Assembly: GCA_024434115.1 (NCBI GenBank)
Contig: QMIT01000003.1
Coordinates: 407,282 to 471,281, forward strand
DNA from: Chloroflexota bacterium
GTDB taxonomy: Bacteria; Chloroflexota; Anaerolineae; Aggregatilineales; J027
Direction: 5' to 3'
Length of the DNA: 64,000 nucleotides
The notes beneath the pieces are model-generated. The model worked only from the letters and a program-made list of their open reading frames with translations. It was not told where the DNA came from and ran no database searches. Position 1 is the stretch's first letter. Each line of letters opens with the position of its first letter. This document shows, piece after piece, positions 18,762-33,678 of this stretch. The position numbers were made by a program, and so were the translations under genes.

Positions 18762-21032
18762 ATGCACCTTCGACGAAAGCTGAAATGGGCATTATTTCTA
18801 ATAATCTTTTTAATTCTCTCTTCCAGTATCCTGTTTTTTAACGATGTTCCAAAAACCAAAGGCCAAGAAACAACCTCCGGTGAATCCTGCGTATTAACGC
18901 CAGAAATCCTCGGTGGGCAAGGTTTCTCAGTCTCTGGGCTTGGATTCTCCGTTTCTGGCCTCGGCTTTTCTGTATCAGGGCTTGGTTTCTCAGTCTCTGG
19001 GCTTGGATTCTCCGTTTCTGGCCTCGGGCTTGACCCTGCACAAGTTGCCCAAGAAATCCGCGATAACCCTATCTCGAATCAATGGCTGCTGGATTTGCAA
19101 CCGGACATTAACGCTGGTTCAGATTTCAACACAACCCATGTGGCGATCCTCATTTTGGACGATTTTAGCACTCCCACCTCACATGGGAACGAAGTGCTGG
19201 CGGTGTTTAATGATCTCGCCAGTGTCGTGGACATGTCCAAAATCCTGCTCGTCCCGATTGACATTGGTGGCGGCAACACAGGTTATCGCACCGAAGACCT
19301 TAAAGCGGTGGTTTATAACACCATTGACGGGCCGGGCGGGTTGATAGATCAAGGCTACAAGCATTTTGTCATCAATATGAGTTTTGGGATTATCCCGTGC
19401 GAAGACCCCGGTATGGTGATTGATGACACGCCCATTCCACCGTTCAAATTTGATGAAGCGGTGTCGTGGATTGATGAGTATGAGCCTGTCACCAACAGCG
19501 CGGTTGTCCCAACCCTCGATTGCGTTGCTAGGCAAACGGATGGGAAGTATGTGGCGTGGTTTGGTTATGACAACGCCAATGATGTGATGGTCAACGTCCC
19601 GGTAGGAACAAACAACCGTTTTAACCCGACCCCGACAGATCGGCAGCAACCACGAGTGTTTGAACCCGGCGACTGGCACAAAGTTTTCTCCGTCAAGTTT
19701 AGTCACGGAACGACATTGGTCTGGAAACTTAAAGGGCCGGATGGTGTGGAGCGGACGGTGAGCGCCAACAAATATTCCACCCCCTGCGAAAGTGTTCCCG
19801 CCGCCCCAACGAACGCGGTGAAGCCTATCGTGAACTGTGTTGCTGATACAGGCGACGGTGTATTTGTCGCACGGTTTGGTTATGAAAACTACAATGCGGT
19901 CTCCGTCACCATTGCGGTTGGAACCAACAATTATGTGATTCCAAATCCCCAAGACCGCAAACAGACCATTACCTTCCTGCCGGGTTTCCATAATGATGTC
20001 TTCCGGGTCAATTTCAACGGTAGTGATCTCACATGGAAATTGAAATCACCCGACGGTAACTACTATCGTGTGATTGCCAACAAGTATTCCCCGCCCTGTT
20101 CGGATGAAATGGGAGTTGGATTGAGTGACTACCTGACAGATCAACTGGGTGTGCCAGAAGACAAGCTGGACTATTACCTCTTCAAATTGACACAATCGGC
20201 AGACGATGAAGCCCAACTCGCCGATTTCCGGGGCTTGCTGAAGGAATATTTGGAGCGTAGTGCCGAGTCTGATGGTGAATTCGCGGTAATCCCAGTGGCC
20301 TCTTCAGGCAATTTCCGTCCTTGGTTGGGATCGTGGCCGCTGTCACCCGCCCGCTGGCCGGAGGTCGTAGCCACTGGCGCGACGCTCGGCAACAATGGCC
20401 CGCTGTGGCAGTTCTCGCATGACGGTAACGTCATCGCCCCCGGTGCAGGCTTCCCGTATGGGGATAACACCTTCCTTGCCGGAACATCATTTGCTGCACC
20501 CTACGTCAGCATGGTCGGCGCTCAATGGCTAACCTATCCCAAAGCCTGCATTTTCGACGGGCAGTATCCACCCCTGACCGAAAACGCGCTTGGCAAAGAC
20601 CTAAATGCCGCGTTCGTGCCGGGAGTTGTTGGCCCCTATAACTGCCTACCAGATCGCTCTTCCGCAGAATGGCGTTTAATTGAGTCGAACGACCCGATTG
20701 TGGCACGGTCAGGCTCGTGGGCAAATGTCAACACAGGAAGTGCCAGTGGAGGCAGCTATCTCTATGCCAGTCGCGCCCGCAACACCTATCTAAAATTCGA
20801 CTTTGAAGGGGAAACGCTGGAAGTCATTTACATCTCAGGGCCGAAGTTGGGCACATTCACCATTATCGTAGATGGGGTAGCGGTTCGCACAGTGAATACC
20901 TATTCTTATAAGACAGAATATGGCAAGACCGAAGTCATCAACTATCTCACCCCCGGCCCACACACCGTCAAGATTGTTCCGGCCTATGGCACAGTCGCCA
21001 TTGATGCCTTCTATGCTGCGGTTAATGACTAG
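18762..21032 (+). CDS. Secreted subtilase-like (S8) protein with heptad repeats and two inserted beta domains
   Basis: 756 residues. A signal peptide (hydrophobic 10-27) is followed by five copies of GFSVSGL (54-88). A shortened S8-like core follows: ILDDF (Asp133/134), SHGNE (His141), SSGN (Asn517) and AGTSFAAP (Ser576). Only 7-8 residues separate Asp and His, far fewer than the roughly 30 of subtilisin. Between His and Asn lie two copies of a domain of about 95 residues (about 248-345 and 355-448), each with an FGY.N motif, VGTNN, a DR(Q/K)Q segment, WKLK and NKYS.PC. A C-terminal beta-sandwich (about 640-756; SGGSYLYASR, TPGPHTVKI, IDAFY) resembles carbohydrate-binding modules. Probably exported. 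Protease activity is plausible but not certain with so compact an Asp-His region. Confidence 0.72.
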   Translation: MHLRRKLKWALFLIIFLILSSSILFFNDVPKTKGQETTSGESCVLTPEILGGQGFSVSGLGFSVSGLGFSVSGLGFSVSGLGFSVSGLGLDPAQVAQEIRDNPISNQWLLDLQPDINAGSDFNTTHVAILILDDFSTPTSHGNEVLAVFNDLASVVDMSKILLVPIDIGGGNTGYRTEDLKAVVYNTIDGPGGLIDQGYKHFVINMSFGIIPCEDPGMVIDDTPIPPFKFDEAVSWIDEYEPVTNSAVVPTLDCVARQTDGKYVAWFGYDNANDVMVNVPVGTNNRFNPTPTDRQQPRVFEPGDWHKVFSVKFSHGTTLVWKLKGPDGVERTVSANKYSTPCESVPAAPTNAVKPIVNCVADTGDGVFVARFGYENYNAVSVTIAVGTNNYVIPNPQDRKQTITFLPGFHNDVFRVNFNGSDLTWKLKSPDGNYYRVIANKYSPPCSDEMGVGLSDYLTDQLGVPEDKLDYYLFKLTQSADDEAQLADFRGLLKEYLERSAESDGEFAVIPVASSGNFRPWLGSWPLSPARWPEVVATGATLGNNGPLWQFSHDGNVIAPGAGFPYGDNTFLAGTSFAAPYVSMVGAQWLTYPKACIFDGQYPPLTENALGKDLNAAFVPGVVGPYNCLPDRSSAEWRLIESNDPIVARSGSWANVNTGSASGGSYLYASRARNTYLKFDFEGETLEVIYISGPKLGTFTIIVDGVAVRTVNTYSYKTEYGKTEVINYLTPGPHTVKIVPAYGTVAIDAFYAAVND
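18921..19025 (+). repeat. Tandem 21-bp repeat, five units, encoding GFSVSGL
   Basis: Five exact heptapeptide copies in frame. At DNA level unit 1 equals unit 4 and unit 2 equals unit 5, while unit 3 differs by synonymous changes. The array is therefore a 63-bp block (three units) followed by a partial second copy. It lies between the signal peptide and the S8-like core. Confidence 0.95.
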
Positions 21033-24605: not shown

Positions 24606-24999
24606 TAGTGCCTCCCCATCGAACGGGGGTCTGATATCTTACTTAACTCAAATGAGGTAAATGGGTATTTTACCACTTGTAAGCGGACTCTCGATGCTTA
24701 TCTTTGTAGTTTACGAGATGTTGACAGGGTTTACAAATTTGGGAATTAAAAGTTTTTAATTCCCTCACACACATTTCTAACAAGGGCACGTGATAAGTGG
24801 AAGAAGTCCACCAATAGCCAATAAGGTCTCCAATTTTGATTCAAAGTTAGTATACAAACCACTGCCCTTTCGGAAAAATTCACGCCAACGTGCTTCCTCA
24901 GACAATTCTTTCTTATATAATGTGATTTATGGAAGGTTTGTCTAAAGTTCATCCCACGCTACACAAATCATCAGTAATAAGGTGGAGGATCAACGCACG
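24606..24999. other. Intergenic region between divergent kinase and giant secreted protein genes
   Basis: 394 bases, AT-rich, no supported gene. It holds a TATAAT at 24916-24921 facing right and a GGAGG at 24984-24988 that sets the start of the next gene. A 6-7-6 inverted repeat (GGTAAA and TTTACC, 24656-24674) lies 51 bases upstream of the kinase start and is too short to call with confidence. Confidence 0.55.
24916..24921 (+). promoter_or_regulatory. Candidate -10 element for the giant PKD/propeller gene
   Basis: Exact TATAAT, 78 bases upstream of the ATG at 25000. No good -35 at 16-18 bases. The surrounding bases resemble those of the element at 18644. Confidence 0.4.
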
Positions 25000-27900
25000 A
25001 TGCGATATAGCTATAAGCGCTTGTTCTTTAATTTGTTAATTATTCTAACCATTCTAGTCACTGGAACATTGGGAGGAGTGCAGGGTCTGTTGAAGGACAG
25101 CCAACCCCAGACTGCCCTCGCCGATGACCCACCCACCCAAACACCCACTCCCGAACCGCCTCCGCCCACTGATGGTAACGAGGGAGATAACACGACTGAT
25201 CCAACCGCGACCACTGAAACCCCCGTAGCAGAACCCACTGAGGGTGTCATCTCGGTTGATACGGCAGCATCAGAAGATGAAGGTGGTATCCAAGCGCAGC
25301 AGACTTATTGCCAAATGGATATCGGCAATAGCAACGACACCAATCCCTACACCTATACTTTCACAGCGCTGCACTCACCAGATATACTCAACTACGCATG
25401 GAATTTCGGGGATGGTTTTACTGCAACTGGCCCCGGCCCCCACGCCATTACTTACACCGCAGCGGGGGTTAAGGCCATTACGCTCAATTGTGATGCACTA
25501 CCCCAACTCACTGGCAGCATTTCCATCACAACACCGCCCAATGCCGCCTTTACACTCAACCCATCGAATTATATGGGTTTGCTACCCATTACCGTCCAAA
25601 CCTTTAACTCCAGCACACCCAGCGGATTGACCTATCTCTGGCAAGTGACTGCCCAACCTGTTGGTGATCCAACGGTTTATCCCAGCCCGACGACCCAAAA
25701 CGCCTCATGGTCATTCAGCTATTATGGTGCCTATACCATTCAACTAACTGTGACCGATGGCGCTGGATTGTTTTCCATCCTCAGCCGTTCCGTTGCCTTA
25801 AACGCACCACAACCTTCGGCCAACTTCTCGATGGTGCCCTCCGATGGAACTGCGCCACTGACTGTCACTATCGTCCCGGAAGATTTGGGCACAGGCCCAA
25901 TTACGTCATGGTCATTCGATTTCGGCGATGGCACGCCTGTCCAAACATTCACACAAGCCGCTGCACCCGCACCGTTTAATCACACCTATACGGCAAATGG
26001 CCCACTACCTAATCACACCTATGATGTGGTCATGACCTATACCGGCCCCGGTGGAAGCGGAACAGTAACGCGACAGGTTGGTGTCTATCCCTCCGGTCAG
26101 GTCGTCGTTGCCAGTTTTACCTATCAATTCACGGGCAATAACCCCGGCGGGCAAATTGAAGTCTGTTTTACCAACACCAGCAGTGGCCCTATCCTGCACA
26201 ATCGTTGGAATTTTGGCGACGGCACTCCCGTTACCGAAGATAACAACACCATCGTTTGCCACCTTTTTGCCAATCAAGGGCTATTCACCGTTATTCTGAC
26301 AGTGGACGATGGTGGTACCCCCACACCCGCCAGTTCGACGGATACCCAAACACTGAGCGTCGTGTCTGCGCCAATTGCAAGCTTCACCTCAACACCAAGC
26401 GGTGCGATTACGTGGGGCACCAACGTTAACTTCACAGACACCAGTACAGGTGCAATTACGGCATGGTCGTGGGACTTTAATGGTGATGGTGTTGAAGACA
26501 GCAACCTTCAAAATCCCACCAACATCCCAGTTGGCAACATCCTCGGCAATATCACGTTGGGTGGTAATCCTATTCGGCTCACCGTAACAGGCCCCGGCGG
26601 AAGTTCCTATGCCGAGATGACCATTACAGTCAATTTGCTGCAACTGACCTGTGGCATCACGGGCGATTTCGATATTCTGCCCGGTGATCCAGCCCAGACC
26701 TACAACAGCAATGTCGGCAATATCAATGGCCGTACCGTCACCTATAACTGGACAGTCACGGGTGTTGGTGCAGGCCTACCCATCACTGGCGCAGGCCCGA
26801 CCATCAACGTAGATTGGGCCGCGATTGGTTTTGGTTCATTCCAGTTGGAATTTACAGCAACCACCCCCGATGGCGCGTCCTGTGCCGACAGCCAAACTGT
26901 GACCCGCTCATGGCCGCCCTTAAACTGCCTTATGGGAACGACGACACCCGATCTACCCAATCCGCTCTATCCCGATAATCGGACGTATACCTTTAGCGCC
27001 AATGTGCAAAACCTGAATGGTCGTACCCCCTTGACCTATCGCTGGATTGTCAATGGAACAACAGTTCCCGGCGAAACAGGGCCAACCTACGCATGGGCCA
27101 ATACGGACACCACTATCGGCCCCGTTACGATTCGTTATGAAGTAGATGTGGACAACGGTGTCGGGTACACCCCTGCTACTGCTACCTGCTTTGAACAACA
27201 GACCTTTACCCGCACGGATTGGCCGACATTAAGCTGCACCAACATTACCGGCCTAAGCCCAGTCGTACCCGTGAACGCCACCAATGGTAATTTGGTCAAT
27301 CGGAGTTATACGGCCAACGTTGATCCCAACACTATTGCGGGTCGCCCAATTAGCTATGAATGGACAATTTCGGATGGGACGATTATTGCGCCCAATCCGA
27401 ATCCCAATCTTCCAGCGGTCAGCGCTAGTAATCAGGCCACCGTTCGCTGGAATACAACCGCTGGTCAGATAGCCCCGGCGGCAGCAGATGACGTGATTGA
27501 GGTAATCGTCAGAGTGTATGATATGAGTGGCACGGTTCTACTGAGCAGTTGTCCACTGATGACCCTTAACGTCGCCGTCCAATATAATCACCTGACCTGC
27601 AATGCACCCGGTGGTGATACAACGCCAGTGGTAGGCGAAACCGTTGGCTACACGCCGAACATTGTCAATCCTTATGGGCGGGCGATTACCTATGCTTGGG
27701 AACTGGAAATTTGGAATGGGACGGCTTATGTTCCATTTGCAACCAGCGCGACCAATCCGTATAACATCACATTCCCGAATGTTGGAGAACAATATCGCCT
27801 ACGTTATACCGCTACCGCAGCCGCGAATGGCTCTATTCCCGGCGAAACCTGCACCCCGTCCCCTTGGCGAGTTCTGACCGTTCAAGGCACGACTGGCGTC

Positions 27901-30900
27901 AGCTTCGCCTGTGATGGTTGGGGCGGCGGCAACAACTATAGCCCTGCTAACCCCGGCAACTTTGCCTACAACATTGATATTGACAATGGGAATGCGCTGC
28001 CGCTACGCTATACATGGCGGTTGCTTGGCCCCGGTGGCTACAATCAAGTCCTTGCCGATTCAGTCAATACGCCCATCATCCTGACCAACAATGGGGTGTT
28101 CGCTAGCCCAGCCTTTACCTTCAACAGTGCCTTCCTCGCCCCAGTTGGCGTAGATGATTTCACCCTGTGGGTGGATGTAACCGATTCTTCGAATCAAACA
28201 ACGGATTTCTGCCACCTCGAAGCGGATCTGGCGATTGGCACGTTTAATGTTGGATACACCTATACAGGCAACGCAAGCGCGGTTGCAGTGGGTCAATCTA
28301 TCTGCTTCACCAACACGTCCGGCACCAGCTTTGATGGCATTGGCGGCTTGACCTATCTGTGGAATTTTGGCACGGCGAACACCACCCTCGGAACACTGAC
28401 CAGCACCGCTGCCCAACCCGGCTGCCTTAGCTTTAACGCCGCTGGTATTTACAATGTCACGCTCGTCGGCACCAATCCTTCCGGCTCACGCACCAATGCA
28501 GCCACGCCGTTTAGTGTCACGTTTAATGTGTATCCGGCTCAAAGTCTTGCCATCAATCGCACGGGCAGCAACTTTGCGGGCACTAATCAAACATTCAATG
28601 CCATCGCCGCCAATTTGATGGGCAACCTAAGATGGCGCGGGTATGATGCCGCCAACAACCTGCTGTGGACAGTCAACAATGTCCCGCAGAATGGCAGCGT
28701 CACTCGTTTCTTTGCGAACCCCGGACTCTATACGGTTGTCGTGGATGGAAATGGCCCGCTTGGCCCAACCTCCGCCAGCCTACAATTTACGCTGATTGAC
28801 ATCAACAGCATCAGCGCGTCGTTTATTCCGTCGCTGTACGCGGGTCAAGCCCCCATGACCGTGTGTTTTACTGATACCAGCACGGGCAATAACATCACCG
28901 ATTGGGCATGGGATTTTGGCAATGGGCAGACATTGGTCTATACCAATTCCAGCATTCCTGCATCCATCTGCACTACCTATACCACCCCCGGCGGGACATT
29001 CCCGGTGACGCTGAATATCCACAGCGATGTGAGTGGCCTCGATGGTACAGCGACCAATCAGATTCGCACCTATAACCCGCTGGAAGCCTCGGCCACCTTT
29101 ACGATCACGCCCAATGGCACGGCGAACTTCTGCTTTACTGCCGTTCTACCGGTTGGTGTGAGCGTGACCAGTTGGGACTTTGGTGATACCACAACCGGAC
29201 CAGCCCAAAACACAATTTGCCACAACTTCGCGTCATCGGGCACCTATCAGGTGAGTATGCACATCACCAACGGCACCACGACAGGTATCATCACACGTCC
29301 AGTGGTCGTCAATCTCAGTAACCCGAACCCTGTTCCGGCTCTCAATGTGTCCGGCGCTTGCTCGGCCTATCGTGTAGCATCGTTCACCGTAACCAATACA
29401 GGTGATGCTATGGTTACGCCCGATCAGGTCACGATCCGTGATTTGAATGGCGTAGTGGTACTGACCGACGCAATTTTGTTGGGCGCAAATCAGAGTCAGA
29501 CATTCACAGTCTCGAATTTATCCGGCGCGGTCACGTTTAGCTCGTTGGACTTCGGTCTAACCGCTAACACCACCTGCAACTATCCACCGGATTTGACTGC
29601 TAATGGTACGTGTTCAGCCTATCGTGTGGCCTCCTTCACCATCACCAACGACGGTGGCCCCATGCCTGATCCCGATACCGCCACCATCCGCGACCTCAAC
29701 AACAATGTCGTGCTCACTCAGTCCTTCCAACTCGCGGCTAATGGCACTCAGACCTTTACCGTCAACAATCTCTCCGGCCCGGTCACCATGACCACTGGCA
29801 CGTCGGGTGTCACCGCCAACACCACCTGCAATTACCCACCCGACTTGACCGCCAACGGCACCTGCTCGGCTTATCGGGTCGCCTCCTTCACCATCACCAA
29901 CGATGGCGGCCCCATGCCTGATCCCGATACCGTCACCATCCGCGACCTCAATAACAACGTCGTCCTGACTCAATCCTTCCAACTCGCGGCTAATGGTACT
30001 CAGACTTTCACGGTCAACAATCTCTCTGGCCCGGTCACCATGACGACTGGCACGTCCGGTGTCACGGCCAACACCACCTGCAACTATCCTCCCGACTTGA
30101 CCGCCAATGGCACCTGCTCGGCCTATCGCGTGGCGTCCTTCACTATCACCAACGATGGCGGTCCCATGCCTGATCCTGATACCGTCACCATCCGCGACCT
30201 CAACAACAACGTCGTCCTCACCCAATCCTTCCAACTCGCGGCCAATGGTACTCAGACCTTTACCGTCAACAATCTCTCCGGCCCGGTCACCATGACCACT
30301 GGCACTTCCGGCGTCACGGCTAACACCACCTGCAACTATCCACCCGACTTGACTGCCAACGGCACTTGCTCGGCTTATCGGGTCGCCTCCTTCACCATCA
30401 CCAACGATGGTGGCCCCATGCCCGATCCCGATACCGTCACCATCCGCGATCTCAACAACAACGTCGTCCTCACCCAATCCTTCCAACTCGCGGCCAATGG
30501 CACTCAGACCTTTACCGTCAACAATCTCTCTGGCCCGGTCACCATGACCACTGGTACGTCGGGCGTCACGGCCAACACCACCTGCAACTATCCACCCGAC
30601 TTGACTGCCAACGGCACTTGCTCGGCCTATCGTGTCGCCTCCTTCACCATCACCAACGATGGCGGCCCCATGCCCGATCCCGATACCGTTACCATCCGCG
30701 ACTTGGACAACAATGTCGTCTCGACCCAATCCTTCCAACTGGCAGCCAATGGCACTCAGACTTTCACCGTCAACAATCTCTCTGGCCCGGTCACCATGAC
30801 CACTGGCACTTCCGGCGTCACGGCTAACACCACCTGCAACTATCCACCGGATGTCGCCGCGATTGGTATTTGCTCACCTGACCGTGTGGCCTCCTTCACT

Positions 30901-33678
30901 GTCACCAACAACGGTGGCCCCATGCCTGACCCCGACACGGTGACCATCCGTGACCGGAATGGGGTGGTCGTTTTGAGCCAACCCTTCCAACTGACCGCGA
31001 ACGGTTCCGCCGTCTTTAGTGTCAACAATATGTCCGGCCCGGTGACGTTCACGACCAGTTCAACCGCGATCACTGCTTCTGCAACATGTGAATATCCGCC
31101 AAACGTAAGTGTCTTTGGTGCCTGCAACTCGATGACCGTTTCGTTCACCATCAGCAACAGCGATGGCCCAATGATCGCGCCACAGACCTACGAAATCCGC
31201 GATAGTGCAAACAATATCGTTCGGACTGGCACATTCCAACTTGCACGTGGGGCCGCGCCGCTTACGGTATTTGTCTCACCGACGATACCGAATACCAACT
31301 ATCGTTTCGTCAGCACGGGCGACATCGGCAGCTTTGATGTACCCTTCACCTGTTATGAAACCGATGATCTGCCCCCGGCCACGCCAAATCCAAATAGCCC
31401 GACCAGCCTTGTACCGACCATTAAATTCCCGGTGGTCAATGGCACAACGGGCACGGTCTATGATGATGTCAGCCCTTCAGCGCCTTGGCGACCCGTCCCC
31501 GGCTGCGGCTACCAGTGCGTAACCTTCCAAGTCTATCACACCAACCGCACAGGTGATTGGGAAATCTTCCGTCTCGGTGACTATCCCGGTCAACCTGACG
31601 CGAACCCGAATCTGTCGCGTGGCGAGGGTGAAAGCGTGGATGATGTCGCCCCCAGCCGCTCACCCAATGGTGAATGGATCGCCTTTGCCAGCAACCGTGA
31701 TGGCAACTGGGAACTCTATGTCAGCCGTACCGATGGCTCCGAACTGCATCGTGTGACCTTTAATTCCGTTGCAATTGATACCGACCCTGCTTGGGGGCCA
31801 AACAATACACTGGTATTTGAGACCACCCGCGATGGCAACTGGGAACTGTATCTGCTCGACCTTTCGACAGGCGTGGAAATGCGTCTGACCGATGATGCCG
31901 CCACCGACATCAATCCGTTCTGGTCACCCGATGGCTCTAAACTGGTCTTCCAAAGTGACCGCAGCGGCAAGTGGCAACTCTATGAACTGAACCTCGCCAC
32001 GATGGAAACCACCCTCCTGAGCGATGGGCAGGGTGAAGACGTTGACCCGGCTTACTCGGCGAAGGGTGATCGTATCGCCTTCCGTTCGACCCGCGAAGGT
32101 AGCGCCAACGCCATCATCTTTGTGATGGATACCAACGGTGGTGCGCCAGTAGCCATTTCCGACGTGGCGGGCGATGCGACCAATCACACTTGGTCAACCG
32201 ACGATTCACTCATCGCCTATCAATCGAATCTCGATGGCGACCTTGATGTCTACGTCTATGATTTCGGCAGCGGCACTACCCGCCAAATCACCGACAACGC
32301 GATTGCCGACTATGCTCCAACATGGGTCTGCGGCACGAATGAGTTGATCTTTACCTCCGACGTAATGGGCAACCCGGACATCTTCGAGACCAATGCGTTG
32401 CCAATTGATGCGCCTGCTATCAAGGTTGAAGATGTGGCGCTGCAATTGACCGACGAACCTGCTGATGACGTGTACCCACAGAGCTTCCCGGCGGAAGAAA
32501 ACGCCAGCCGTGAAGGTAAAGTACCCGCCGCCAGTATGGAAGGTATTCCGGGTATCCAAACCGACTACCTACATCCTGAACTGGATGTGACCCCGATTGA
32601 CCCAACCGATGAAAACGGCGAGGGTGTCGAAGCTATGAAGGTAAATGGGTGCTCGGCGCTGGCCTGTGTGGATTCGCTGCTCTATCACACCAATCAAACC
32701 AACGATTGGGAAATCTTCCGGCTCGATCTGGATGGACTCAGCCCAGTAGCCGAAGCCAATCTGTCACGCGGTATTGGGGAAGGCATCCATGATGTCGCCC
32801 CCACCCGTTCTCCCAATGGCGATTATGTGGCCTTTGCCAGTAACCGTGACGGCAATTGGGAACTCTATATCGCCTCAGCCGATGGCTCGTTTGTCCAGCG
32901 TGCCACCTTTAATGAAGGGGTGGATACCGATCCCGTTTGGGCACCCAATGGCGAAAGCCTCGTGTTTGAATCTAACCGCGATGGCAATTGGGAACTGTAT
33001 TCGCTCGATTTAGCGACAGGTCAGGTCATGCGTCTGACGGTGGATGAGAGCAGTGACATCAATCCCTTCTGGTCACCTGCCTCCGGTTCCATCGTGTTCC
33101 AGAGTGACCGCACTGGTCAATGGCAACTCTATGCGCTCAATATGAGCACCTACGAAACCACGCTCCTCAGCGACGGCACTGGCAACGACTATGATCCGGT
33201 ATATTCAAACGCTGGTGACTATATCGCCTTCCGTTCGGATCGTCAGGGTGGCAGTGTTCTATTTGTTATGGACAAGAGCGGCGCGAACGTCACCGCGATT
33301 TCCGATGCTGCCGGTAACGCCAGCAATGCCACATGGTATAACGATGATGAACTCCTTGCCTATCAATCGGATGTTGATGGTGACATGGACATCTATGTCT
33401 ACGAATTCAATACGGGCGAAACCCGTCAAGTCACCGCCAATGGGGTCGCGGATTATGCCCCCACATGGGCCTGCGACGCACCCAACGTCGTCTTTACCTC
33501 GAATGTGTTAGGTGCGCCAGACCTCTTCGTCACCCCGGCCCTGCCCATCACGGCAAGTTCGGTGGATGTAGCCCTCAACACCAATCAATTGACTTTCGGC
33601 GTGGGTGATAACCTCTACCCGGAAAATACCCCGAATGAGGAAAACGCCAGCCGCGAGAACTATCTGCCCACCCGGTAA
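25000..33678 (+). CDS. Giant secreted multi-domain protein: PKD domains, 84-residue repeats, two TolB-like beta-propellers
   Basis: 2892 residues. The ATG at 25000 has GGAGG 11 bases upstream and opens a signal peptide (hydrophobic about 11-28), preferred to a GTG six codons earlier. A Pro/Thr-rich linker (about 45-80) follows. Residues about 110-1433 contain some 14 PKD-like beta domains (WNFGDG, WSFDFGDG, WAWDFGNG and similar). Residues about 1444-2120 are eight 84-residue repeats, the central five nearly identical. Two tandem PD40/TolB-like propellers follow (about 2167-2507 and 2555-2892), each with NRDGNWELY blades and ending in EENASRE. No membrane anchor or sortase motif is seen. The protein is probably extracellular or wall-associated, with roles in adhesion or polymer binding. 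That function is inferred. Confidence 0.88.
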   Translation: MRYSYKRLFFNLLIILTILVTGTLGGVQGLLKDSQPQTALADDPPTQTPTPEPPPPTDGNEGDNTTDPTATTETPVAEPTEGVISVDTAASEDEGGIQAQQTYCQMDIGNSNDTNPYTYTFTALHSPDILNYAWNFGDGFTATGPGPHAITYTAAGVKAITLNCDALPQLTGSISITTPPNAAFTLNPSNYMGLLPITVQTFNSSTPSGLTYLWQVTAQPVGDPTVYPSPTTQNASWSFSYYGAYTIQLTVTDGAGLFSILSRSVALNAPQPSANFSMVPSDGTAPLTVTIVPEDLGTGPITSWSFDFGDGTPVQTFTQAAAPAPFNHTYTANGPLPNHTYDVVMTYTGPGGSGTVTRQVGVYPSGQVVVASFTYQFTGNNPGGQIEVCFTNTSSGPILHNRWNFGDGTPVTEDNNTIVCHLFANQGLFTVILTVDDGGTPTPASSTDTQTLSVVSAPIASFTSTPSGAITWGTNVNFTDTSTGAITAWSWDFNGDGVEDSNLQNPTNIPVGNILGNITLGGNPIRLTVTGPGGSSYAEMTITVNLLQLTCGITGDFDILPGDPAQTYNSNVGNINGRTVTYNWTVTGVGAGLPITGAGPTINVDWAAIGFGSFQLEFTATTPDGASCADSQTVTRSWPPLNCLMGTTTPDLPNPLYPDNRTYTFSANVQNLNGRTPLTYRWIVNGTTVPGETGPTYAWANTDTTIGPVTIRYEVDVDNGVGYTPATATCFEQQTFTRTDWPTLSCTNITGLSPVVPVNATNGNLVNRSYTANVDPNTIAGRPISYEWTISDGTIIAPNPNPNLPAVSASNQATVRWNTTAGQIAPAAADDVIEVIVRVYDMSGTVLLSSCPLMTLNVAVQYNHLTCNAPGGDTTPVVGETVGYTPNIVNPYGRAITYAWELEIWNGTAYVPFATSATNPYNITFPNVGEQYRLRYTATAAANGSIPGETCTPSPWRVLTVQGTTGVSFACDGWGGGNNYSPANPGNFAYNIDIDNGNALPLRYTWRLLGPGGYNQVLADSVNTPIILTNNGVFASPAFTFNSAFLAPVGVDDFTLWVDVTDSSNQTTDFCHLEADLAIGTFNVGYTYTGNASAVAVGQSICFTNTSGTSFDGIGGLTYLWNFGTANTTLGTLTSTAAQPGCLSFNAAGIYNVTLVGTNPSGSRTNAATPFSVTFNVYPAQSLAINRTGSNFAGTNQTFNAIAANLMGNLRWRGYDAANNLLWTVNNVPQNGSVTRFFANPGLYTVVVDGNGPLGPTSASLQFTLIDINSISASFIPSLYAGQAPMTVCFTDTSTGNNITDWAWDFGNGQTLVYTNSSIPASICTTYTTPGGTFPVTLNIHSDVSGLDGTATNQIRTYNPLEASATFTITPNGTANFCFTAVLPVGVSVTSWDFGDTTTGPAQNTICHNFASSGTYQVSMHITNGTTTGIITRPVVVNLSNPNPVPALNVSGACSAYRVASFTVTNTGDAMVTPDQVTIRDLNGVVVLTDAILLGANQSQTFTVSNLSGAVTFSSLDFGLTANTTCNYPPDLTANGTCSAYRVASFTITNDGGPMPDPDTATIRDLNNNVVLTQSFQLAANGTQTFTVNNLSGPVTMTTGTSGVTANTTCNYPPDLTANGTCSAYRVASFTITNDGGPMPDPDTVTIRDLNNNVVLTQSFQLAANGTQTFTVNNLSGPVTMTTGTSGVTANTTCNYPPDLTANGTCSAYRVASFTITNDGGPMPDPDTVTIRDLNNNVVLTQSFQLAANGTQTFTVNNLSGPVTMTTGTSGVTANTTCNYPPDLTANGTCSAYRVASFTITNDGGPMPDPDTVTIRDLNNNVVLTQSFQLAANGTQTFTVNNLSGPVTMTTGTSGVTANTTCNYPPDLTANGTCSAYRVASFTITNDGGPMPDPDTVTIRDLDNNVVSTQSFQLAANGTQTFTVNNLSGPVTMTTGTSGVTANTTCNYPPDVAAIGICSPDRVASFTVTNNGGPMPDPDTVTIRDRNGVVVLSQPFQLTANGSAVFSVNNMSGPVTFTTSSTAITASATCEYPPNVSVFGACNSMTVSFTISNSDGPMIAPQTYEIRDSANNIVRTGTFQLARGAAPLTVFVSPTIPNTNYRFVSTGDIGSFDVPFTCYETDDLPPATPNPNSPTSLVPTIKFPVVNGTTGTVYDDVSPSAPWRPVPGCGYQCVTFQVYHTNRTGDWEIFRLGDYPGQPDANPNLSRGEGESVDDVAPSRSPNGEWIAFASNRDGNWELYVSRTDGSELHRVTFNSVAIDTDPAWGPNNTLVFETTRDGNWELYLLDLSTGVEMRLTDDAATDINPFWSPDGSKLVFQSDRSGKWQLYELNLATMETTLLSDGQGEDVDPAYSAKGDRIAFRSTREGSANAIIFVMDTNGGAPVAISDVAGDATNHTWSTDDSLIAYQSNLDGDLDVYVYDFGSGTTRQITDNAIADYAPTWVCGTNELIFTSDVMGNPDIFETNALPIDAPAIKVEDVALQLTDEPADDVYPQSFPAEENASREGKVPAASMEGIPGIQTDYLHPELDVTPIDPTDENGEGVEAMKVNGCSALACVDSLLYHTNQTNDWEIFRLDLDGLSPVAEANLSRGIGEGIHDVAPTRSPNGDYVAFASNRDGNWELYIASADGSFVQRATFNEGVDTDPVWAPNGESLVFESNRDGNWELYSLDLATGQVMRLTVDESSDINPFWSPASGSIVFQSDRTGQWQLYALNMSTYETTLLSDGTGNDYDPVYSNAGDYIAFRSDRQGGSVLFVMDKSGANVTAISDAAGNASNATWYNDDELLAYQSDVDGDMDIYVYEFNTGETRQVTANGVADYAPTWACDAPNVVFTSNVLGAPDLFVTPALPITASSVDVALNTNQLTFGVGDNLYPENTPNEENASRENYLPTR
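29581..30840 (+). repeat. Five tandem 252-bp repeats (84 residues each) inside the giant protein gene
   Basis: Units start at 29581, 29833, 30085, 30337 and 30589. Copies 2, 3 and 4 have identical protein sequence but differ in DNA at many third positions. Copy 1 has Ala for Val and copy 5 carries Asp for Asn and Ser for Leu. Each unit starts YPPDLTANGTCSAYR and ends TANTTCN, with one Cys at each end of the unit. Diverged copies flank the array (about 29329-29580, 30841-31092 and 31093-31360). Confidence 0.95.

Follow-up and report, generated by a model that had tools for sequence, protein, structure and literature searches.

Exact Heptapeptide Arrays in the Propeptide Position of a Predicted Secreted Subtilase Family of Chloroflexota, Encoded Preferentially beside STAND-TPR Genes

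INTRODUCTION

The closest described counterparts of the locus analyzed here are the RRNPPA peptide signaling systems, of which Rap-Phr is an example. Phr pheromones are 5 to 10 amino acids long and are encoded beside TPR receptor genes; their propeptides, which sometimes contain up to 8 identical copies, are matured by extracellular proteases (PMC11343458, PMC5199041). PhrC, for example, is cut by Vpr (PMC10657474). No RRNPP system in Chloroflexota was found in the papers searched.

Short repeated elements are also known from other settings. The BASS amyloid signaling motifs are common to STAND receptors and effectors, and the ice-binding protein 3ULT has heptad repeats with a V-x-G core.

Here, we analyzed a 64,000-nucleotide stretch of a Chloroflexota genome from the order Aggregatilineales ("the window" refers to this whole stretch), centering on a gene for an S8 subtilase that carries five identical heptapeptides near its N terminus. 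Like Rap-Phr systems, the locus combines a predicted exported precursor, short peptides (5 to 10 amino acids in RRNPPA systems) in identical copies, an adjacent TPR gene, and candidate paralogous channels. Unlike in RRNPPA systems, the candidate precursor is not a short propeptide gene (50 to 120 aa) but the N terminus of a subtilase (756 aa in the window and 660 to 1,600 aa across the family). In place of a Rap, Rgg, NprR, PlcR, PrgX, or AimR receptor, the partner, whose receptor role is putative, is a kinase-AAA_16-TPR protein of ~1,150 aa. Cleavage and binding are likewise putative here, and the phylum is Chloroflexota. With S8 subtilisins (PF00082; Bacillus Vpr), the protein shares an S8 core scoring above the family cutoff, the Asp, His, Asn, and Ser residues, and predicted secretion; it differs in its two inserted beta domains, its N-terminal peptide array, and the lack of a detectable I9 domain. 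The partner has kinase, AAA_16, and TPR regions in the same order as MalT/PknK-like STAND regulators, presumably resembling PknK in layout, but no DNA-binding domain was found in it. As in BASS systems, a STAND protein is encoded beside a candidate effector with a short repeated motif, but the effector here would be exported. A BASS-type amyloid pair was rejected, with an array-like heptad in 0 of 18 partner sequences. Neither the S8 core nor the STAND-TPR architecture is new in kind; the papers searched contained no case of a STAND regulator genetically paired with a secreted subtilase.

RESULTS

The array lies between an N-terminal helix and the S8 core

A first-pass annotation, made from the DNA letters of the window, had described five exact GFSVSGL heptads in a secreted subtilase-like protein. 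The heptads were confirmed to the base, as a 63-bp block followed by a 42-bp partial copy (Table 1), and the protein indeed combines a hydrophobic N-terminal helix with an S8 core above the Pfam cutoff (Peptidase_S8, PF00082; 24.7 bits versus 21.8). The hydropathy peak (2.31 at aa 7) and the modeled N-terminal helix lead us to infer that the array subtilase is exported. Across 15 diverse members of the family, the Asp-His-Ser triad and oxyanion Asn (D133, H141, N517, and S576) are complete. C43 and G52-Q53-G54 of the anchor are invariant in these members as well, and Cys213, given its own invariance, is a possible disulfide partner of Cys43. The array occupies the propeptide position, as the annotation had proposed: the signal peptide and the S8 core are only ~45 aa apart, and Pfam at E ≤ 1 returned CE2_N and Peptidase_S8 only, with no Inhibitor_I9 prodomain.

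Table 1. Features of the array subtilase gene and its partner gene (positions in the window)
Feature	Position	Strand	Basis
Array-bearing secreted (predicted) S8 subtilase, 756 aa	18762..21032	+	ORF, Pfam, in-genome paralogue 55% identical
Signal peptide/N-terminal hydrophobic helix (aa 1-35, helix 2-24)	18762..18866	+	Hydropathy, AlphaFold helix
Anchor C43-x-x-TP-x-x-L-x-GQG54, kept in array-bearing members	18888..18923	+	Alignment, 15 diverse members
Array, five exact GFSVSGL heptads, aa 54-88	18921..19025	+	Translation, unit comparison
63-bp block, units 1-3; first 42 bp repeated at 18984-19025	18921..18983	+	Unit comparison
Helical linker into S8 core, xPxQxAQEIRDNPIS.W	19026..19136	+	Predicted helices aa 92-101, 106-112; W108 invariant
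Catalytic Asp133 (19158-19160), His141 (19182-19184)	19158..19184	+	Invariant, 15 diverse members
Cys213 in SFGxIPC, invariant	19398..19400	+	15-member alignment
Two copies, inserted ~90-aa beta domain (ECV..FGY..)	19503..20081	+	Alignment
Oxyanion Asn517 (20310-20312), catalytic Ser576 (20487-20489)	20310..20489	+	Invariant, 15 diverse members
C-terminal CE2_N-like domain	20679..21023	+	Pfam 26.2 bits, just below cutoff 27.9
Partner gene, Ser/Thr kinase-AAA_16 (STAND)-TPR, 1,159 aa	21126..24605	-	Pfam, neighbor comparison

The two inserted beta domains sit inside the catalytic domain, after the catalytic His and before the oxyanion Asn. The domain (ECV..FGY..G.NN.F.P....R.Q...F.PG) was also seen in Chloroflexota proteins that are otherwise unrelated and in the C-terminal region of a further protein, L022. 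The CE2_N-like domain, possibly a surface attachment or sorting domain, is shared with roughly a dozen further proteins encoded in the genome, most of them large (L003 to L014).

Peptide identity is maintained while the DNA diverges

Within the window array, units 1 and 4 and units 2 and 5 are identical at 21 of 21 bases, and the remaining pairs differ by 5 to 7 bases (TRF: period 21, 4.7 copies, score 112). The units differ at about one-fifth of their bases, all silently, with 0 of 44 codon differences being nonsynonymous. Among five orthologues of the GFSVSGL (S) type, 0 of 35 array columns varied in amino acid and 28 of 35 varied silently, compared to 154 and 306, respectively, of 676 columns elsewhere in the mature sequence (Fisher P = 2.6 × 10−5). 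The array is therefore far beyond chance, since homologues keep its amino acids while silent sites change. Units at the same position differed less across species than units at different positions (3.6 versus 5.1), indicating that the five units were inherited in place. At the codon level, neighboring units were less alike than in random order and units two apart were more alike, consistent with either 42-bp block events or selection against slippage. The edges of the array are clean (flanks match the unit at only ~1 to 1.5 of 7 positions), and arrays consist of whole units with no degenerate capping repeats. Repetition of the DNA itself is incidental: relatives have scrambled codons but unchanged peptides. 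Taken together, the alignments show a protein-level element in the propeptide position whose units purifying selection has held identical.

Each lineage of the order carries its own unit

A genome-wide pattern search found such arrays only in the window gene and its in-genome paralogue, which is 55% identical and carries five exact GFSVTGL (T) units; between S and T units a single residue changes, and it changes in each of the five copies. Both paralogues were present in all five genomes of the genus, with exactly five units in all ten genes. Copy number, which the first-pass annotation had expected to vary between strains, thus differs between genera only.

We then searched 154 genomes of the order with a profile and inspected the N termini of the matches. 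The relatives located are Anaerolineae metagenome assemblies, and their common layout begins with an invariant Cys in a C-x-x-TP-x-x-L-x-GQG-like anchor, of which genomes G387 and G430 have a looser form, followed by the array and a helical entry to the S8 core. Arrays have 2 to 8 units of a lineage-specific peptide. Besides GFSVSGL (×5) and GFSVTGL (×5), the unit types are GFSVSGQ (×3 to 6), GFSLSGQ (×5 to 6), GFNFSGQ-type (×8), GLNITGL-type (×5), G[LF][NS]VT[GQ][FL] (×6), GFNVSSL (×7), GNYAVTGL-type octads (×5), GRFTLSGL (×2), GRFSLDGA-type (×3), and GLTPGAL-type (×8; proline mid-unit in 7 of 8 units). Mean unit identity was 0.95 within genes versus 0.66 between genes. Homologues thus carry repeats of their own, and no frameshifts between copies were seen in relatives. 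Several subtilase genes can lie together: G387 has two in tandem (L241/L108), each with two exact GRFTLSGL octads, and G462 has three in a row (L167).

In-frame matches to the array pattern within the order fell in this subtilase family only; those outside it in G249, G345, G269, and G512 were rejected as low-complexity sequence or other frames of other genes. In 396 genomes of the class, the GL-type pattern matched the genus and one low-complexity stretch only. A phylum sample yielded no array outside the subtilase family, the outside matches resembling simple repeats (at the DNA level only). Beyond the order, in a 400-genome phylum sample with three candidates scored per genome, there was no full-length relative, only the FGY domain.

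Array subtilase genes are preferentially paired with STAND-TPR genes

By Pfam, the partner has the AAA_16/NB-ARC ATPase and TPR sensor regions of a STAND NTPase; no membrane helix was predicted in the window copy. The genome contains exactly two full-length kinase-AAA-TPR members (48% identical), one beside each array subtilase, and all other matches to the partner cover the kinase part or the TPR part only. Co-duplication of subtilase and kinase was considered: the S and T subtilases are sisters, but the kinase tree leaves S and T unseparated. Because that tree does not resolve the two, we do not claim co-duplication.

Counting array loci nonredundantly (n = 22; the S and T genes of the genus counted once each), a STAND-TPR neighbor was found in 13. 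Twelve are full-length kinase-AAA-TPR homologues at 39 to 59% identity, a count that includes homologues truncated at a contig end or interrupted by a frameshift, and one is a more distant cyclase-AAA-TPR protein. The kinase genes are convergent, divergent, or tandem to the subtilase gene, in G440 with one intervening ORF. In two other loci a kinase gene lies 14 and 20 kb away rather than adjacent, four of the 22 have no partner in the flanks read, and three more are too near contig ends. These counts show a preferential pairing of array subtilase genes with STAND-TPR signaling genes, a result beyond the first-pass annotation. In the cyclase case (L250 in G006, partner of a GRFSLDGA-type subtilase), a cyclase-like domain replaces the kinase (PF00211, 29.3 bits), which suggests that outputs may be swapped on one sensor.

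Nine loci (L253 to L261) encode short subtilases of ~440 aa with no array. They carry a related anchor (C-x-x-TPDQ-x-x-GQ) and, in the array's place, a conserved single-copy segment, C-x-x-TPDQ-x-x-GQA[YF]S-x-TAGA-x-GE...GLTPEGEDI. Each of the nine has a DUF4062-NB-ARC-TPR partner encoded on the strand of the subtilase gene; eight of these partner genes adjoin it and one lies ~5 kb from it. Since these relatives are also paired, the TPR pairing is a trait of the subtilase family rather than of the array by itself. Judging from domain content, what stays the same in the partners is a STAND ATPase combined with a predicted TPR sensor, and the output domain varies (kinase, cyclase, or DUF4062).

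PADLOC gave no defense match for the subtilase; its matches to the partner were all of a generic kinase/TPR kind. Divergent from the kinase gene lies a gene (24982-33678, + strand) for a 2,898-aa secreted protein. It encodes PKD domains and PD40 propeller repeats and contains 5.5 tandem copies of a 252-bp (84-aa) repeat (29566-30955; 89% matching). Secreted proteins weakly similar to its product adjoin array subtilases in G430 and G471.

DISCUSSION

We tentatively favor, at less than even confidence, the reading of the array as a multicopy heptapeptide precursor fused to a subtilase and read by the neighboring TPR sensor with RRNPP-like logic. The array subtilase would be exported, and its array would be cut into identical GFSVSGL-type peptides by the subtilase itself, in cis or in trans, or by another extracellular protease. 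The released heptapeptide would be imported via an oligopeptide transporter, and its binding by the TPR part of the kinase-STAND-TPR protein would switch the kinase. Peptide uptake appears at least possible, with 18 SBP_bac_5 peptide-binding proteins encoded in the genome. The paralogous GFSVSGL and GFSVTGL pairs of one genome would form two separate channels. The fuller proposal, a self-contained Chloroflexota signaling system in which a secreted 2- to 8-copy pheromone precursor and its maturation protease are served by a dedicated kinase-STAND-TPR receptor next door, is somewhat more doubtful still.

We counted in favor of a precursor the peptide-level identity of clean, whole units that are uniform within a gene; the all-copy substitution between paralogues, with the unit sequence otherwise free between lineages; and the exported S8 enzyme with intact catalytic residues beside a STAND-TPR neighbor. 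Against it, array-less relatives are TPR-paired, 6 of the 22 array loci lack an adjacent partner in flanks that were readable, and the literature covered has no RRNPP system from this phylum. Coevolution of unit type with TPR sequence gave no signal, unit distance correlating with TPR distance at r = 0.32 and with kinase distance at 0.45. Moreover, most lineages share a G-hydrophobic-small-hydrophobic-small pattern that suits a structural or docking role too, and the residue preceding the presumed cut varies (L, Q, F, or A).

Two other accounts appear unlikely, and about equally so. In the first, the array replaces the propeptide as a tandem pseudosubstrate: it would fill the active-site cleft, where a Cys43-Cys213 disulfide might tether it, and the enzyme would stay inactive until the array is cut away, each unit mimicking a cleavage site (P4 to P1, [VILF]-[STD]-[GQS]-[LFQA], then G). 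Its placement directly before the first predicted S8-core helices, with no I9 domain found by Pfam where a propeptide would be, argues for this account, as do the invariance of both Cys43 and Cys213 and the retention of the anchor and a conserved segment by array-less relatives. In subtilisin, the site of Cys213 presumably comes after the strand lining the substrate cleft. However, one inhibitory site would be enough, leaving unexplained the 2 to 8 exact copies, the paralogue-wide substitutions, and the Pro that GLTPGAL would place at P4; the Gln that one large clade would have at P1 is unusual for a subtilisin, and the disulfide is itself putative.

In the second account, units form strands that stack, as two heptads per 14-residue coil or as cross-beta, to oligomerize or anchor the enzyme. 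Hydrophobic and small polar residues alternate strictly in most units, several arrays have a 42-bp DNA periodicity (lag-2 P = 0.005), and the secreted S8 enzyme Vpr forms active fibrils (PMC10657474). A PDB search gave a weak match to the heptad beta-roll protein 3ULT, which shares the heptad repeats, but the match is at chance level (E = 0.83) and was not reproduced by the family's other arrays, which match unrelated folds or nothing. We rejected the PDB matches of three array types altogether as unrelated, chance-level, and inconsistent. AlphaFold placed no strand in the array, at a confidence too poor to interpret (pLDDT of ~22 for the whole protein, run with 8 sequences, and ~30 to 39 for the isolated array). 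The (GLTPGAL)8 array, with proline in nearly every unit, is hard to fit to a beta strand, and structural repeats usually allow S/T mixing and degenerate ends, which these arrays do not. On these grounds, the beta or fibrous role suggested by the first-pass annotation did not gain support.

It is improbable that the array stays uncut as a recognition strip, a multivalent docking motif for an extracellular protein or the cell wall with copy number setting avidity. Identity within genes and change between genes would suit a repeated binding site equally well; the sole nearby candidate receptor, however, is a cytosolic-looking STAND-TPR protein (no membrane helix is predicted for the copy in the window) that has no array-like motif of its own. 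A neutral or tolerated low-complexity spacer from replication slippage, to which the one recent block duplication visible in the genome (units 1 and 2 = 4 and 5) might point, is contradicted by the selection data and very improbable, given 0 of 35 amino acid changes against 28 silent ones, exactly five units in ten genus genes, and adjacent units less alike in codons than random, the opposite of fresh slippage.

The annotation's view of the array as a new kind of element fits the libraries used, in which it is undescribed; neither the exact-repeat prosegment nor its genetic link to STAND-TPR genes turned up in searches of Pfam, NCBIfam, PDB, and the literature (among it few subscription journals). 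If the precursor reading is true, it would mean peptide quorum sensing in a phylum with none described in the papers searched, with precursor and protease in one chain and a kinase-STAND-TPR protein as receptor. The predicted signals (GFSVSGL, GFSVTGL, and others) are short enough for synthesis and testing. Even if the signal reading is wrong, these data describe a subtilase family that has an unusual exact-repeat prosegment and is strongly associated, at the genetic level, with STAND-TPR proteins, a lead to what such Chloroflexota sensor proteins respond to.
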